This document shows positions 4,490 to 64,000 of a stretch of 64,000 bases of DNA, one piece after another. Each line of letters opens with the position of its first letter. Within the stretch, counting starts at the first letter, position 1. A program made the position numbers and the translations under genes. The notes under the pieces were generated by a model that had not been told where the DNA came from, made no database searches, and saw nothing but the letters and a program-made list of their open reading frames with translations. The stretch is from the NCBI RefSeq assembly GCF_029581195.1, contig NZ_CP120737.1:4007001-4071000 (forward strand). Direction: 5' to 3'. The DNA comes from Solwaraspora sp. WMMD791 (GTDB taxonomy: Bacteria > Actinomycetota > Actinomycetes > Mycobacteriales > Micromonosporaceae).

Positions 4490-5110
4490 CTAGGCACCCC
4501 ACCGCCCCCGGTGGACCACCTCGTCGACCGGTCGTCGCCCCCGCCGCAGCGACGCCGACCGGGTGTCCGGCGCCGGATAGCCGACGGTCAGCGCGCCGAT
4601 CGGGGTGAAGTCGTCCGGTACGCCGAACGCCGTCCGGTAGTGGCCCGTGCGCTCCGGCGGGATGCCGAAGAAACACGCGCCCAGCCCCTCGTCGACCGCG
4701 GTCAGCAGCATCAGCAACGCGGCGAACCCGGTGTCGATGTGCCAGTACGGCACCGGCCACCGGGCCTCGTCCCGATCGGTCCAGCCCTTGTCGGGTTGGG
4801 CGTACCGGTCGAGATAGGCCGACCGGTTGGCGTGCGGGACGATGATCAGCGGAGCCCGGCTCATCCCGGTCAACCAGCGGCTGCGCCGCGCGCTGTCCGG
4901 ATCCCCGGCGACCGGCGTCGTCGCCGTCCAGAACAGCTCCCGGTCGGCCGGGGTCTCCAGCACCAGGAAGCCCCAGCCCTGGGAGAAACCGGCGGACGGG
5001 GCCCGGATCGCATGCTCCAGTAGCCGCTGCACGACCTCGGGCTCCACCGGGCGGTCCGGATCGTAGTTGCGCACCATCCGCCGACGGCGGATCACCTCCC
5101 GCAGCTGCAT
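4490..5110 (-). CDS. Nitroreductase family protein
   Basis: A 206-residue flavoprotein of the nitroreductase fold. The N-terminus holds the FMN phosphate-binding arginines (REVIRRRRMVRNYD), followed by EHAIRAPSAGFSQGW, the usual active-site loop. Later comes the AVDEGLGACFFGIPPE helix and a VGYPAPD turn near the C-terminus. Members reduce nitro groups, quinones or flavins using NAD(P)H; the true substrate is unknown. The start codon overlaps the stop of the aldose epimerase gene in a TGATG arrangement, so the two are translationally coupled. The length is typical for the family. Confidence 0.85.
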   Translation of the reverse strand: MQLREVIRRRRMVRNYDPDRPVEPEVVQRLLEHAIRAPSAGFSQGWGFLVLETPADRELFWTATTPVAGDPDSARRSRWLTGMSRAPLIIVPHANRSAYLDRYAQPDKGWTDRDEARWPVPYWHIDTGFAALLMLLTAVDEGLGACFFGIPPERTGHYRTAFGVPDDFTPIGALTVGYPAPDTRSASLRRGRRPVDEVVHRGRWGA

Positions 5111-6060
5111 CAGCGCGCGCCCGGACCCGCCTCGGGGCGGATGCCCCAGCTGGCCTGCCAGGTCTCGGCCGGCGCCAGCACGATCAGATCGCGCCCGGAC
5201 CGGAACGCGTCCGGCGGGCAGGTCATCGGCTCCACCGCGATCGACCGGCGGTAGCGCGGCGGCGCGAAAGTGTCCCCACTGAACAGTTGCCACCAGCCGA
5301 AGGCCGGATCGGCCCAGATCGTCACGGCCGCCGAACCATCCGCAGTAGACAGCCGGGCCGCCGAACCACCGGACGGGTCGCGGTCCAGGTCGCCGAAGGC
5401 GGTGTCCAGCACCGTGGCGCCGACCCGTCGACCCGAGGTGAAGTCGAACTCGCTGCCGGCCACCTTCGCCGTACCGATCGGCAGCAGCCGGCCGTCGACC
5501 AGGACCCGGCTGCGGGCCGGCAGCCGCACGACGGTGTCGTCGGCGTCGGTGTCGGGCAACCGCAGGTACGGATGGACCCCGAGGCCGAACGGCGCCGGCT
5601 CGGCGCTGGCGTTGGTCGCCTGGTGGGTCACCCGCAACCCGTCCGCGCCGACCTGCCACCGGGTACGCAGCACCAACGTCCACGGGTATCCGGGGGTGGC
5701 GGGCAGCGTCGTCCCGATCACCACCTCGTCGGCTGCCTTGGACACCAACTGCCAGGGCAGCCAGCAGACCAGGCCGTGCAGGGCGGTGTGTCGGGACGGC
5801 TCCGACAGGTGCAGTTGGCGATCGACCCCGTCGAAGGTGTAGCGGCCGTCCCGGATCCGGTTCGGCCAGGGGATCAGCACCTGGCCGGCGCCGCCCACGC
5901 AGAGTTCGTCCTCGGCGTACCCGTCGACGTAGTCGAATCCACCGGCCCGGTAGGCCCGCAGGCCGCCACCCACCTCGACCACGACGGCCTCGTGCCCGTG
6001 TGCCGTGATCGTCCACTGCGCTCCGGACGGTGGGCCCGGACGTGCATCGACGTTGTCCAT
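5110..6060 (-). CDS. Aldose 1-epimerase family protein
   Basis: A 316-residue protein starting at ATG 6060. It has the galactose-mutarotase beta-sandwich motifs: NRIRDGRYTFDG near residue 65, HTALHGLVCW near 88 and GVHPYLRLP near 163, whose histidines would act on the sugar ring oxygen. A late Glu in SIAVEPMTCPPDAF would be the general base. Mutarotases interconvert alpha and beta anomers of free sugars. Many actinobacterial copies are uncharacterised paralogues of GalM, so the substrate is open. It is first in a coupled pair with the nitroreductase, and no shared pathway is obvious. Confidence 0.85.
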   Translation of the reverse strand: MDNVDARPGPPSGAQWTITAHGHEAVVVEVGGGLRAYRAGGFDYVDGYAEDELCVGGAGQVLIPWPNRIRDGRYTFDGVDRQLHLSEPSRHTALHGLVCWLPWQLVSKAADEVVIGTTLPATPGYPWTLVLRTRWQVGADGLRVTHQATNASAEPAPFGLGVHPYLRLPDTDADDTVVRLPARSRVLVDGRLLPIGTAKVAGSEFDFTSGRRVGATVLDTAFGDLDRDPSGGSAARLSTADGSAAVTIWADPAFGWWQLFSGDTFAPPRYRRSIAVEPMTCPPDAFRSGRDLIVLAPAETWQASWGIRPEAGPGAR

Positions 6061-58715: not shown

Positions 58716-59573
58716 TCAGCTGGCTTGTGGGAGCGGGTCGAAGCGGACGGTCAGCCCGAGGCTGTTGGCCTCGCGGATCATCCGTTTCATGGCGCGTTCG
58801 GGGTCACGCTTGGTGAAGTAGTCGGCTCCGAGGTCGGTGAAGGTGGTCTTGTCGTGTAGGACGTGCCAGATCGCGATGGCCAGCTTGTGCATGACGGCGA
58901 CGAGTGCCTTCTTCCCGCCACGGCGGGCGGCGATCCGCCGGTAGTACACCCCGTAGTAGGAGTTCCTGTCGCGCAGGGCGGCGAGGGCCGCGACGCCGAG
59001 GATGCGTTTGAGGTTGGCGTTGCCGCTGCGGGTCCTGCCCGACATGGTGACCCCGGCTGACTCGTTCATCCCGGGACAGACACCGATCCACGAGGCCAGA
59101 TGCCCGGCGGTGGCGAACCGGGTCATGTCGCCGCCGGTCTCGGCGAGGATCACCTCCGCAGCGCGGCGGCCCACACCGGGCAGGGAGTCGAGGTTGTCGA
59201 TGTCGTCGTCGTGGCCGGCGGTCAGGTCGGCGATCCGCTGGTCCAACTGCCCGACGAGCCGGTCGAGGTGATCGATCCGGTCCAGGTAGTGCCGACACAT
59301 CCAGCCGTGGTGGTCGGTGAACGTGCCATCCAGGGCGGCGACCAGGTCGAGGGTCTTCTTCCGTGCCCGGCCGACAGCGAGTCCGGCCAGCACCTGCGGA
59401 TCGCGTTCGCCGGCGACGAGCGCGTCGATGATGGCCCGTCCGGTCGTACCGACCACGTTGGTGATGACACTGGTCAGCTTCATCCCGGTGTCCTCCAGTT
59501 CCTTCTCCAACCGCTGGATCTCCTGCCCACGGGCCACGGTCAGCTCGGTGCGGCGGCGGGTCAGGTCACGCAG
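58716..59573 (-). pseudogene. IS110 family transposase, truncated
   Basis: The C-terminal about 285 residues of an IS110/IS1111-type transposase. The Transposase_20 domain is visible in LDSLPGVGRRAAEVILAETG, FATAGHLASWIGVCPGMNES and SGRTRSGNANLKRILGVAAL, with GVYYRRIAARRGGKKALVAV further on. The N-terminal DEDD domain is missing: the reading frame runs into the left end of the IS3-type element at 59574, and its missing part is not on the other side. The last visible motif order is normal. The element is dead. Confidence 0.85.
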
Positions 59574-59603
59574 TGTCAAGCCCCGGGTTTGATGGAGAGT
59601 TGG

Positions 59604-60524
59604 TTAGCTGGTTTTCAGGGGTGCGGTGACCGGTTGGGTCATCGCGTGTAGTGCTTCGTACTCGGCGGGCGGGACGTGTCCGAGCTCGCCGTGGAGCCGT
59701 CGGTTGTTGTACCAGTCGATGTACTCGACGGTGGCCATCTCCAGGTCGTCGAGTCCGCGCCACGGACCGGTGTTGCGGACGAGTTCGGCCTTGTACAGGG
59801 AGTTGAACGCCTCGGCCATGGCGTTGTCGTACGAGTCCCCTTTGGATCCAACGGAGGTGACGGCGCCGGCCTCGGCGAGGCGTTGGGTGTAGCGAATCGC
59901 TCGATATTGGACTCCCCGGTCGGAGTGATGGACGAGTCCGCCCAGGTCAGCGCCCTGGTTCTCGCGGCGCCAGATCGCCATCTTCAGCGCGTCGAGCGCC
60001 AGATCCGTGTACAGCGACGTCGAGACCTGCCAGCCGACGATCATCCGGGAGTACACGTCGAGGACGAACGCGGCGTACACCCAGCCCACGCTGGTGCGCA
60101 CGTAGGTCAGGTCGGCGACCCACAGCTGGTTCGGCCGCACCGCGGTGAAGTCGCGGTTGACCAGGTCAGCGGGCCGGCTGGTCTCGGCGGCGGGCCGGGT
60201 CGTGCGCGGTGACCTGTCGCGTAGCAGCCCACGCAGTCCGGCGGCGCGCATCAGCCGCTCGACCGTGCACCGGGCCACGTCGACGCCTTGGCGGTGCAGC
60301 TCGTGCCAGATCTTGCGGGCCCCGTAGACGCCGTAGTTGGCCGCGTGGACCTGGGCGATCATCGCGGTGAGCTCGTCGTCACGTCTCGATCGGGCCGAGG
60401 CGGGGCGGGTTTTCGTGGCGTAGTAGGTCGATGGTGCGATCTCGGCTGGCGTGTCTTCAAGCGCCCGCAGGACCGGCTGGACACCGTGTTCGGCCTTCTG
60501 GGAGTCGACGAACTCCGCTCTCAT
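59604..60524 (-). CDS. IS3 family transposase OrfB
   Basis: A 306-residue DDE integrase-like transposase. The N-terminal HTH_21 region (AANYGVYGARKIWHELHRQG) is followed by the rve domain: the first Asp in LWVADLTYVRTSVGW, the second in LVHHSDRGVQYR, and the Glu in AMAEAFNSLYKAELV. In intact IS3 elements it is made as an OrfAB fusion by frameshift; here its ATG overlaps the orfA stop by ATGA. It looks intact, but orfA is interrupted, so the element is probably immobile. Confidence 0.93.
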   Translation of the reverse strand: MRAEFVDSQKAEHGVQPVLRALEDTPAEIAPSTYYATKTRPASARSRRDDELTAMIAQVHAANYGVYGARKIWHELHRQGVDVARCTVERLMRAAGLRGLLRDRSPRTTRPAAETSRPADLVNRDFTAVRPNQLWVADLTYVRTSVGWVYAAFVLDVYSRMIVGWQVSTSLYTDLALDALKMAIWRRENQGADLGGLVHHSDRGVQYRAIRYTQRLAEAGAVTSVGSKGDSYDNAMAEAFNSLYKAELVRNTGPWRGLDDLEMATVEYIDWYNNRRLHGELGHVPPAEYEALHAMTQPVTAPLKTS

Positions 60525-60796
60525 CGCGACGGACGGTCCAGCTCCGCCGCGAAGAAACTCGCGGCGGATTTCAGGATCTGGTTCGCCCGCCGCAGCTCAC
60601 GGACCTCCCGTTCCAGCGCGGCGATGCGGTCGGCGTCGCCGCTGGTGGTGCCCGGACGGTCACCGGCGTCGACCTCGGCCTTCTTCACCCAGACCCGCAA
60701 CGCCTCGGGATGCACCCCGAGTTGATCGGCGATCCGCCGGATCGCGCCGACAGCGGACGTCGGGTCCCGGCGCGCGTCGAGGGCCAACCGGGTCGC

Positions 60797-60817
60797 ACGC
60801 TCACGCAGCTCGTCGGA
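60797..60817. repeat. Target-site duplication, left copy
   Basis: 21 bp beginning ACGCTCACGCAG, identical to 62116-62136, directly abutting the 14-bp inverted end of the inserted element. Confidence 0.9.
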
Positions 60818-60982
60818 CCCGACTTGGGTCACGTTAATGATCATCTTCCGATCTCAGCGCTGCGACCTGCTGCGTTGCTCGCGATGCCGCCGGAATTTGC
60901 GCACTAACCGGCGCCACGGCCTCACCAAAAGGTCCTTTTTGGGTATTTTCTCACGCCTTCCCGGGAGGGCGAGACCATCCAA

Positions 60983-61901
60983 TGAGCCATTTTCATCCTG
61001 TGTAGCGGTTGGCTTCGACGTGGTGCAGGACGAGGATGGCCTGCACGATCGCGGTGGCGCGGTGTGGGCTGCAGCGCAGCTTGGTCAGGATCTTCCAGGT
61101 CTTGAGCGTGGCGATGGCCCGTTCGCCGTGTGCTCGGATCTTCGCGTGTGCCCGGTTGATCGTCTTCTGGCGGCGTGACAGCTTCGGCCGGGAGCGGTGG
61201 CGCTTGAACGGGGTGCGGACGGTGCCTCGGGCGCCCTGGTAGCCCTTGTCGGCGAAGGTCATCACCTGGGCGCTGGTCAGCGCGTGGGTGATGCCGTGGA
61301 CACGGGCGGCGGTGAGGTCGTGCGCCGAGCCCGGCAGTGTCCGGGAGGCCCAGACGAGCCGGCCGGCGGGGTCGGCGATGACCTGCACGTTCACGCCGTG
61401 GCGCCGGTGTTTGCCGGAGTAGTACGGCTTCTGGTCCGCCACGCGGTCGATCGGGATCAGCGTGCCGTCGAGGATCGTGTACGCCAGGTGTCGGATGCGG
61501 CGCATCGCCGTGGCCAGGTCCTCGGCGACCGCGGCGAGCAGGGCGATCGCTTCCTGCACGTACCGCCAGGCGGTGGCGACGCCGATGGCGAACCCGGCGG
61601 CGAGCCGGGTGTAGGTGTCGCCGTTGTGTAGGTGGGCCAGGGCGAGTAGTGCCTGGCGGCCGGGGTCGAGGCGCCGCCATCGGGATCGATGCTGGTTGCG
61701 GTGGGCTCGGATGAGGTCGGTGAGGTGGTTGAGGGTGCGGCTGGACAGCGGGATCGTGGAGGGGTAAGACAGCACGGGCGAGGCTCCCGGTCGGGGCATC
61801 GGATCTTGGTCGACTGCTGTCTTACCTGGAGCCTCGCCCTCATCGCTCTCCTGGCTTGCTGCGCCCGCCCTGACCTGCAAGATCAGCTTGGAAAAGGCTC
61901 A
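60983..61901 (-). mobile_element. IS5-type insertion sequence
   Basis: About 919 bp with imperfect inverted ends TGAGCCATTTTCA and TGAGCCTTTTCCA (11 of 13). It contains one transposase gene. No obvious target duplication was resolved. It is nested in the 60818-62115 element. Confidence 0.7.
60993..61775 (-). CDS. IS5 family transposase (DDE_Tnp_4 type)
   Basis: 260 residues from GTG 61775, eight bases after GGGAG (ATG 61799 is an alternative). An N-terminal helix-turn-helix region (LARLNN-like HLHNGDTYTRLAAGFAIGVA) precedes a DDE_4-type catalytic core: TILDGTLIPIDRVADQKPYY with the first Asp, MTFADKGYQGARG with the second, and HAKIRAHGERAIATLKTW with the Glu. Length and domain fit single-ORF IS5-group transposases. 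It appears intact. It is the only complete transposase of the nest that still has its own inverted ends. Confidence 0.9.
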   Translation of the reverse strand: MLSYPSTIPLSSRTLNHLTDLIRAHRNQHRSRWRRLDPGRQALLALAHLHNGDTYTRLAAGFAIGVATAWRYVQEAIALLAAVAEDLATAMRRIRHLAYTILDGTLIPIDRVADQKPYYSGKHRRHGVNVQVIADPAGRLVWASRTLPGSAHDLTAARVHGITHALTSAQVMTFADKGYQGARGTVRTPFKRHRSRPKLSRRQKTINRAHAKIRAHGERAIATLKTWKILTKLRCSPHRATAIVQAILVLHHVEANRYTG

Positions 61902-62115
61902 ATATAGATGGACAACCGAGACCGAAGAGCCCAGAGTCCCGACCGCGAGGCGTGGACCAGGGTCCACGCGAGCGGATGTCGAGTATCCGTCAAGCCGACG
62001 CGCCGCTATCCAGAACGAAGTTGTCCCTTCGGTTGGGGCGCTCAACGTGCGACACCGCGACCACCAGCGGAAACACTGCGCTGATCGTCGTACGCACTAA
62101 ATGACCCAAGTCGGG

Positions 62116-62136
62116 ACGCTCACGCAGCTCGTCGGA
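62116..62136. repeat. Target-site duplication, right copy
   Basis: Identical to 60797-60817; the sequence encodes SDELRER of IS3 OrfA on the minus strand. Confidence 0.9.
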
Positions 62137-62211
62137 GTACTTCTTCGGTGCGGGCATCGCTGGTGTTCCTCCCAGGTTTCGATGTCTCCATCAAACCCGG
62201 TGCGGAACACA

Positions 62212-62654
62212 CCGTGGTCACGGCCGCGAAGAGACCCGCACCGTCAAAGCCGTCACCGTCGCCACCCCGGTGGTATCGCCTTCCCACACGCCCGGCAGGC
62301 CGTGCGTGTCATCCGGACTCGCATCGTCGCTGGTAGGACCAGCAGGGAGACGGCCTACCTGACCGTGTCGCTGCCCGCCGGTGAAGCCTTGCCCCGTGAA
62401 CTGCAGAGCTGGATACGCCGGCACTGGCACATCGAGAACAGACTCCATCACGTACGAGACGTGACGTTCCGTGAAGACCTCCACCAGGCCCGGACCGTAA
62501 CAGGCCCACCGTTCTCGCGACGTTGCGTAACACCGCGATCGGCTGGCGCCGCACCACCGGAGCGACCAACATCGCGAGGGCAACCCGCCACGCCAACCGC
62601 CGATCACACGACCTGATCACCGCCGTGACCAGCAGTTACCCAACAACGCAATAG
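62212..62654 (+). pseudogene. ISAs1 family transposase remnant, frameshifted
   Basis: Three frame segments join into an ISAs1-type C-terminus: HGREETRTVKAVTVATP, then (frameshift near 62270) GGIAFPHARQAVRVIRTRIV through IRRHWHIENRLHHVRDVTFR and EDLHQART, then (frameshift near 62510) VLATLRNTAIGWRRTTGATN to a TAG at about 62652. The N-terminal part is lost at the IS3 boundary. HWxIENxLHxVRDVTFxED is the family signature. It is not functional. Confidence 0.8.
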
Positions 62655-62741
62655 CCCTGCGGACCACACCCAGGTCAAACACGGAAATCTACGCAATCCC
62701 AGTTCTCACTGAAGCTTGCGAAAACATTCTGATCTGACTTC

Positions 62742-63047
62742 TCATCGATACCGTCGTCGCAATTCGGATGCCAGTTCACGTAACTGCCCAAGAGCAACAT
62801 CGTCGGGTCGGACCGCAAGTCGACCCGCAATGAATTTGTCGACCGAACGACGCAGAGCGGCAACCAGCTCAAGCCGGCGGCCCAGGTCCACCTCATCGAT
62901 CCACAAGCAGTTTAGATCAATCGCATCCGCAACGACCTGACGGTCAGCAGGGTTACTGACGACAGAAAGAAGGTTATCCATTAGCACACCAAATGTAACA
63001 CTCCTGAGGAAAACCTCTCCATCTTCAAAAGCAACCATTGCCGACAC
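62742..63047 (-). CDS. Probable immunity protein for the adjacent toxin
   Basis: 101 residues from GTG 63047, seven bases after GAGG, which begins right behind the toxin stop codon (ten bases between the genes). The protein is small, acidic and helical (EVFLRSVTFGVLMDNLLSVV, DAIDLNCLWIDEVDLGRRLE, ALGQLRELASELRRRY). I recognise no named family. Its position directly downstream of a polymorphic toxin C-terminus, in the same lower-GC stretch, is the standard site of the immunity gene. GC content is visibly lower than in the rest of the window. Confidence 0.7.
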   Translation of the reverse strand: MSAMVAFEDGEVFLRSVTFGVLMDNLLSVVSNPADRQVVADAIDLNCLWIDEVDLGRRLELVAALRRSVDKFIAGRLAVRPDDVALGQLRELASELRRRYR

Positions 63048-63057
63048 TGCAACCTCA

Positions 63058-64000
63058 TCAATTCAGAATATCGGTGCCGTTGATAATCATTACTCGAACC
63101 TGGATTGATCGATCCAGGCCACTATAGTACCCCATCACATCATTCACCTGCGAAGGCGACGCGCCCGTCAGATCCACGACCGCAAAATCTGACTTGTACG
63201 CATGCCTCGGAATCTGAGCAAGAAACCGAGTTCGCTGCCTATCCCAGTTCGCGAAGGCACCAGGCGCACCCATTGCATCGTATTTCACACCATTACCATC
63301 GATAAAGTCCCCGTCAGGCGCGTTGATTCCGCGAATATCTTCTCCGGGGAATATTTTATTCATTCGCTCAAGAGTTGCCTGTTCAGCCGCATTCAGAATC
63401 GGCACTGACCGTGGACAATTGTGAACCAGCACCACCGCAGGACCAGCCGACACATAATAAGTGTGGATGTCGTCGATGGTGAGGTTGTGGACCGTACGGG
63501 TGTCGGTCCACTGGCGGATTGCAGTGACCTGGACGAAGATGCCGGCGGAGGTTTGCAGCCACTGGCCGGCTGTCAACTCTGCGGCGTCGAGCCACTCGCC
63601 TTCCTCCGGCACCCAGAACGGGTGAGTGTCGGTGGCGACCAGGACCCCTTCGGCGTCACCTCGGTTGCCATCTGTGTCGACGGTAATCTCGACCAGGTTC
63701 TTCTGTCCGTGGCTGGTGATAGTGGCGACGGTCGCCTTGGCAGCGGTCTCGCCGGTTTCTGGGTCGGTGGCCACCACTAGGTCACCGACGTCGAGTTTCT
63801 CGATCGGTTTAGTCGATCCGTCAGCGAGGAGCACCAGGGTGCCTGGCACGAAGCTGCTCGTCGCACACGTTCCCAAGTCGTCGAGCTTCTTTCGACTGCT
63901 GAAGAAGGTTCCGACAGCGTCCTTGAGCTTCCCGCCCAGGTTCCACAATCGCTCACCGATTTCCTTCAGCTTCCATGGCCTCGAACCGTACCGAAGAAGC
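63058..64000 (-). CDS. Polymorphic toxin C-terminus with HINT domain, partial
   Basis: The frame is open to the window edge, so the protein is longer than the 313 residues seen. A HINT (intein-like) protease domain begins with Cys in TCATSSFVPGTLVLLADGST, has the ATDTHPFWVPEEGEWLDA block and IDDIHTYYVSAGPAVVLVHN, and ends with His-Asn-Cys. The 120 residues after the cut form a variable toxin (FIDGNGVKYDAMGAPGAF, AYKSDFAVVDLTGASPSQV) resembling restriction-endonuclease-fold CDI toxins. HINT would release the toxin tip. An immunity gene follows directly. Confidence 0.85.
   Translation of the reverse strand, partial: LLRYGSRPWKLKEIGERLWNLGGKLKDAVGTFFSSRKKLDDLGTCATSSFVPGTLVLLADGSTKPIEKLDVGDLVVATDPETGETAAKATVATITSHGQKNLVEITVDTDGNRGDAEGVLVATDTHPFWVPEEGEWLDAAELTAGQWLQTSAGIFVQVTAIRQWTDTRTVHNLTIDDIHTYYVSAGPAVVLVHNCPRSVPILNAAEQATLERMNKIFPGEDIRGINAPDGDFIDGNGVKYDAMGAPGAFANWDRQRTRFLAQIPRHAYKSDFAVVDLTGASPSQVNDVMGYYSGLDRSIQVRVMIINGTDILN

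Follow-up and report, generated by a model that had tools for sequence, protein, structure and literature searches.

Transposases usually give target duplications of one fixed length. For the IS1634 family, a 2008 review (PMC2266710) lists AT-rich duplications of 5-6 bp in the family entry and tabulates a terminus of the form C-----YT; for IS1549 and IS1634 it gives duplications of 8-514 bp and states that no mechanistic model had been put forward for them. No account of a miniature element of this kind, nor of a mechanism for the long duplications, was found in those parts of the open-licence literature that were searched. The window analysed here, a 64,000-nucleotide stretch of the Solwaraspora sp. 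WMMD791 genome, holds such an element inside an IS3 copy. The original prediction raised the possibility of a new kind of element, but the terminus and the motifs inside the ends place this one in the IS1634 family, and we are confident that it is a miniature, transposase-less, IS1549-like derivative of that family; its mobilisation was probably in trans, by a transposase that this genome no longer has. It is a novel member, ordinary in kind: long variable duplications are already on record for the IS1634 family.

Structure of the insertion and its IS3 host

The element interrupts orfA of the IS3 copy and is itself interrupted by an IS5-family element (window positions and strand):

59604..60524, minus: host IS3 orfB (domain/family match)
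60521..60817, minus: 3' part of host IS3 orfA (HTH_Tnp_1; ORF list and domain match)
60797..60817, plus: left copy of the 21-bp target duplication, ACGCTCACGCAGCTCGTCGGA (direct-repeat comparison)
60818..62115, plus: whole inserted element, 1298 bp (378-bp core, nested IS5 and its 3-bp duplication)
60818..60831, plus: left terminal inverted repeat, CCCGACTTGGGTCA (same left terminus on the IS1634 element L058)
60863..60869, plus: left-end motif at element position 46 (CGACCTG here, TGACCTG in L006-L008)
60901..60907, plus: left-end motif GCACTAA at element position 84 (at the same position in part of the IS1634 relatives)
60981..60983, plus: AAT duplication of the nested IS5 (partner 61901-61903)
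60984..61900, minus: nested IS5-family element (transposase ORF 60993-61880, minus strand)
62094..62100, minus: motif TTAGTGC of the right end, 16 bases inside the terminus
62102..62115, minus: right terminal inverted repeat, complementary to the left at all 14 bp (100%)
62116..62136, plus: right copy of the target duplication, 100% identical to the left
62116..62157, minus: 5' part of host IS3 orfA, MPAPKKYSDELRER (ORF list, joined flanks)

The 14-bp inverted ends and the 21-bp duplication within IS3 orfA had been predicted from the window, and they are borne out in both coordinates and sequence. Is the repeat a product of the insertion? A comparison with empty IS3 copies, proposed with the prediction, gives a direct answer. 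An orfA probe run against 61 genomes matched eight, the element's own genome included; nine loci were fetched, one of them the window. In six of the other IS3 copies (L120-L124 and L127) the 21-mer is present once, with 0-3 mismatches, and doubled in none, and it runs straight into the orfA start (GTACT...); L125 and L126 hold no 21-mer within 4 mismatches, the L125 match spanning probe bases 1-105 alone. A single 21-mer in six other copies marks the window repeat as a true target duplication. The contrary reading, in which the direct repeats are a pre-existing tandem repeat of IS3, can hardly be entertained: all six informative copies speak against it, and the sister elements L007 and L008 lie in unrelated targets, each between its own perfect repeats. 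Excising the element together with one repeat was expected to restore OrfA, and the joined window flanks do give the protein originally named; orfA is intact in the relative L120. The translations beside the IS3 copy in L120 also show a regular peptide run resembling a CRISPR-type repeat array.

Subtracting the nested IS5 and its AAT duplication leaves a core of 378 bp, a slight correction to the first estimate of about 379 bp. The companion claim, that the core has no ORF, stands in the sense that none is conserved in the two sister copies compared: L007 has one frame open throughout (126 codons) and L006 has none. The nested IS5 transposase has a DDE_Tnp_4 match and scores 123 bits against NF033581, under its 140-bit cut-off. 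The outer duplication is 21 bp and that of the nested element is 3 bp, so the nested IS5 is not the mover of the outer element, as originally argued; assignment of the outer element to the IS5 family was rejected on its 21-bp duplication, IS5 being the nested element only. The exact 14-mer CCCGACTTGGGTCA occurs at just these two sites in the 6,929,721-base single-contig genome. One-mismatch matches at L003 and L004 in this genome have no partner with fewer than 4 mismatches within 1.5 kb; these and an exact 14-mer in L025, without a partner by the same measure, were set aside as chance matches.

A structured RNA was considered and rejected: in the consensus fold of three copies, 5 of 102 pairs are changed on both sides, with a covariation term of +3.02, and no RNA claim is therefore made for the element. 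A search of Rfam with L006 and L007 (E up to 1) was likewise empty. The plasmid and phage collections searched hold no DNA match to the element, and its end pattern occurs on no viral contig.

At least five IS types lie within this stretch. An IS110-family transposase (58716-59579, minus; NF033542, 158 bits) is found directly downstream of IS3 orfB, and a frame-broken ISAs1-type transposase remnant (62201-62660, plus; NF033564, 53.6 bits against a cut-off of 70) just past the IS3 end. Further along, a protein with a pretoxin HINT domain (63058-63948, minus; PF07591, 71 bits) is followed by a 101-aa ORF with no Pfam match (62742-63047, minus); the arrangement suggests the end of a polymorphic toxin and, next to it, a candidate immunity gene.

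Sister copies and placement in the IS1634 family

Copies of the same ends were expected elsewhere, and three full-length sisters, L006, L007 and L008, were found. The left part of the core, searched against 200 family genomes, matched 18 at E up to 0.01; four of these, the element's own included, hold real copies, and the other 14 matches were weak (E 7e-4 or worse) and were dropped, five of the 14 loci (L009, L010, L011, L013 and L014) being scanned and showing no end with fewer than 4 mismatches. The full L007 element, searched against 354 family genomes, matched seven at E up to 1e-6. Full-length copies are present in four of the 354 (own included), one per genome, and fragments in others. 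L007, from the same genus, is 380 bp long and lies within a perfect 38-bp duplication; L008, from Micromonospora halophytica, has a perfect 26-bp duplication and a different nested IS5-type element; L006, again from the same genus, is 379 bp long and has no duplication, nor any flanking repeat over 4 kb on each side beyond one 36-bp match of 86% that lies off the ends. The copies are 82-87% identical in the pairs scored. The element is thus short, with inverted ends and a target duplication, lacks a transposase and exists in more than one copy, which are the marks of a MITE.

Partial copies were seen as well. In three genomes (G316, G060 and G290) just a left end is seen (L075, L076 and L078): these pieces measure 85-91 bp, share 80-89% identity with L007, lack a partner end within 1.5 kb and have no match to an IS1634 transposase in their vicinity. 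L071 (G105:C1:271100-271197) resembles bases 198-304 of the L007 copy at 74% and is interior alone: neither element end was matched in the surrounding 5.5 kb.

To which family do these ends belong? The terminus CCCGACTTGGGTCA fits the IS1634 form C-----YT, with C at position 1 and T at positions 7 and 8, and the duplications of 21, 38 and 26 bp in the window, L007 and L008 (L006 has none) agree with those of the family, which are either 5-6 bp or long and variable (8-514 bp). Identical or near-identical ends occur on elements that carry an IS1634 transposase. L058, from Mycolicibacterium sp. CR10, has ends CCCGACTTGGGTCA and CCCGAGTTGGGTCA (14/14 and 13/14 matches to the left and right window ends), a perfect 76-bp duplication and an IS1634 transposase split by IS256 into pieces of 126 and 220 bits (NF033559). 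L059, from a Bifidobacteriaceae MAG, has the exact left end beside a 62-aa IS1634 transposase remnant that is 67.7% identical to L030; and L030 itself, from the same genus as the window, is intact, with ends CCCGAGTTGGCTCA (12/14), a 42-bp duplication and a transposase of 395 bits, for which no phage match was found at E up to 1e-30. The search for an autonomous relative, recommended at the outset, therefore succeeded in part: L030 and L058 are such relatives, but the exact 14-bp terminus did not turn up beside any complete transposase gene, that of L058 being interrupted and that of L059 a remnant. A scan of genome contigs with the terminus and the inner box gave five stretches, two of them already known (L060, which is L008, and L062). 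Besides L058 and L059, the scan yielded L061 in Kribbella albertanoniae (5056-5610), an element of 555 bp whose ends are related; its 48-bp duplication is decayed (85% identity), and it gave no match to an IS1634 transposase.

The internal motifs at the ends point the same way. Among 61 autonomous insertions, TGACCTG stands at left-end position 46 in 19, with 2 occurrences elsewhere in the first 100 bases; GCACTAA or TTAGTGC stands at position 84 in 10, with 14 more occurrences at 67-86; and TTAGTGC, absent from the remainder of the last 100 bases, lies 16-21 bases from the right end in 27, mostly at 17 or 20. All three motifs are present in L006 and L007 (positions 46, 84 and 16); L008 keeps both left-end motifs, the right one being cut by its nested IS; and the window copy has two exactly and the one at position 46 with one substitution (CGACCTG). 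The shared terminus and motifs, found on transposase-bearing elements, thus place the element in the IS1634 family, although the motifs occur in just part of the relatives, which counts against the assignment. Membership of another group is very unlikely. IS1202-like elements make 24-29 bp duplications and would fit by duplication length alone; a Tn3-type miniature or an IS5 derivative would bring duplications of 5 bp or 2-4 bp, which do not fit the 21, 26 and 38 bp observed; and for all of these, the terminus and end motifs match elements with an IS1634 transposase instead.

Which transposase moved the element? The original prediction that it is non-autonomous agrees with a core that has no conserved ORF and with the absence of any IS1634 transposase match in the window's own genome; such transposases are present in 24 of 121 related genomes. 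A further transposase search, which scored 3 of 9 candidates in the window's genome, returned no IS1634 match at E up to 1e-60. Judging by its ends, the IS1634-family derivative was probably mobilised in trans by an IS1634 transposase, and it is apparently stranded in a genome without its cognate enzyme.

Duplication lengths, junctions and a tentative model of insertion

The 21-bp duplication was initially judged unusual, but in the surveyed IS1634 clade 48 of 64 insertions have duplications of at least 21 bp. For this survey, 118 loci with a transposase match were examined, of which 70 reached an end score of 10.5; removal of nine duplicates and of L092 (doubtful ends) left 60, to which L058 and three miniature copies were added, giving 64 distinct insertions. 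Thirty-three other loci had no assigned ends; fifteen with good ends and no exact duplication, picked by eye, were considered apart, and L032 (20 bp, one mismatch) also lies outside the set. Duplications are 5 bp in 14 insertions, 6 bp in one, 11 bp in one and 21-1004 bp in 48, counts to be read with the fact that ends were chosen partly by duplication, which favours finding duplications. Eleven periods tried on the long lengths gave nothing convincing (lowest p 0.03). Among the fifteen set apart, BLAST found adjacent repeats at 98-99% identity in L154 (63 bp) and L081 (98 bp before the contig ends, for a full length of about 115 bp), and a 41-bp repeat with a 13-base shift in L191; in the other 12 copies BLAST found no adjacent repeat either.

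What sets the length? A tree of 39 transposase rows contains a clade of 33 around L030 (support 100/99), in which the 25 rows placed comprise 20 with long and 5 with 5-bp duplications; six more distant IS1634 rows have 4-7 bp duplications, some resting on doubtful ends, and carry a long-branch warning. The preponderance of long rows would suit a fixed, longer stagger, with the long duplication an intrinsic spacing of the clade, but that explanation is highly improbable: L148 and L163 in one genome, with transposases identical over the 480 residues compared, have duplications of 5 and 322 bp, L162 and L180 in another, identical over 480 residues likewise, have 5 and 72 bp, and the long lengths vary over 21-1004 bp. 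Identical transposases with short and long products indicate that length is set per event. The miniature copies show, in addition, that long variable duplication is independent of carrying the transposase gene. Their duplications (21, 26 and 38 bp) are shorter than the 45 autonomous long ones (median 94 bp; p 0.009), as they are when the Kribbella 48 bp is added (p 0.007) and as they were in a first comparison with 21 autonomous values, L032 among them (p 0.026); three or four miniature values make this no more than a hint. What the survey shows about long duplications is correlative and best regarded as a lead.

Base preferences at the junctions connect the two size classes in part. YCNGR describes the 5-bp targets of 14 insertions. 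The 48 long insertions provide 96 junctions, at which G is avoided at +1 (3 junctions, p 1e-12) and T favoured (42, p 3e-9), C stands at +2 in 48 (p 2.5e-4), and +5 is A in 43 (p 1e-9) and a purine in 74 (p 1e-7), A and purine fractions that no other position between -15 and +40 exceeds; the +5 preference returns in the 25 insertions that were not part of the discovery set (A in 24 of 50, p 1e-6; purine in 34 of 50, p 0.016). When a matrix was trained on the 5-bp sites alone and scored at offsets -12 to +12, its mean peaked exactly at the long junctions for both ends, the means being still negative there (-1.3 and -0.9, against about -3 to -5.5 at other offsets); at each end, 17 of the 46 sites scored rank within the top tenth of their neighbouring offsets. 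There is no enrichment of G at +4 (25 of 96 long junctions; 13 of 14 among the 5-bp sites; Fisher 2e-6). With this G missing and the matrix mean negative, a long junction can at most be a loosened 5-bp site; the consensus is poorly matched by the right-end junction in the window (ACGCT) and by the two junctions of L007 (TGGCG, TTATT). The 12 duplication-free copies keep the same preferences (+1 T in 15 of 24, +5 A in 12 of 24), and their junctions thus look like true insertion points.

How could one enzyme make both products? We propose, tentatively and at somewhat less than even confidence, that an IS1549-like transposase has two outcomes: concerted insertion at a 5-bp YCNGR site and split insertion at sites up to about 1 kb apart. 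In the first, one 5-bp site would serve both ends; in the second, which the junction preferences suggest is often the case, each end would be joined separately at its own 5-bp-type site; each appears to have met a site of 5-bp geometry at which the other end was not joined. The two related sites would be separated by tens to hundreds of bases and would lie either on opposite strands or, behind a replication fork, on the two sister duplexes. The stretch between them would then be filled in or copied to yield a long direct repeat; whether a duplication or a deletion results would depend on which site is used first. Split insertion predicts matching target deletions at copies without a duplication. 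Flanks of L110, L113, L114 and L176 were compared with plasmids, the best 15 of 16, 57, 33 and 28 records being considered; for L176, the sole one taken further, a relative matched one flank alone.

The possible fork setting, with one site on each sister duplex, recalls the IS1634-family transposase of Acidiphilium, which is reported to bind the beta clamp (PMC4549789). Such binding would fit a fork-linked process; the link is loose because a legend in the same paper lists 6-base repeats, there called inverted repeats, for three copies of that element. Sister molecules also figure in a competing explanation, which we consider unlikely: they would each receive an ordinary 5-bp insertion, at sites close together, and the two identical elements would then undergo homologous recombination. 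This route would put a 5-bp-type site at each junction, as is partly seen, and would allow lengths up to 1004 bp; it would also predict the full YCNGR, however, and the difference at +4 speaks against two fused 5-bp insertions. Moreover, long products outnumber 5-bp ones by 48 to 14 in the sample, and an element present as a single copy in its genome, such as that in the window, also shows a long duplication.

If separate joining of the two ends does occur, it would explain the long variable duplications left without a model in 2008, and the 8-514-bp puzzle would become a testable statement about how each end is joined. With the two sites on sister duplexes, IS1549-like elements would also be a source of tandem duplications. 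L135 (G093) is an IS1634-family copy between perfect 1004-bp direct repeats. In M. mycoides, 13-kb repeats flanked by IS1634 are described, the coordinates given placing them about 1.8 kb apart (PMC1798306), and a process of the L135 type at a larger scale is conceivable by analogy.

Comparison with described elements

MITECca01, derived from an IS982 (PMC9769881), is likewise a short non-coding derivative that bears the ends of its parental IS; it belongs to another IS family, the window element is low in copy number, and the text of that paper uses neither the term target site nor direct repeat. IS1549 and IS1634, compared here by description rather than by sequence, share with the window element the fit to C-----YT and the long variable duplications, and the relatives found here carry an IS1634-family transposase, whereas the window element has none; most autonomous relatives measure about 1.6-1.8 kb against its 378-bp core. 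L030 and L058, with 12 and (at the left end) all 14 of its 14 terminal bases, also resemble it; they have the long duplications, TTAGTGC near the right end and the TGACCTG box at position 46, and differ from the window element in possessing the transposase gene, intact in L030 and split by IS256 in L058.
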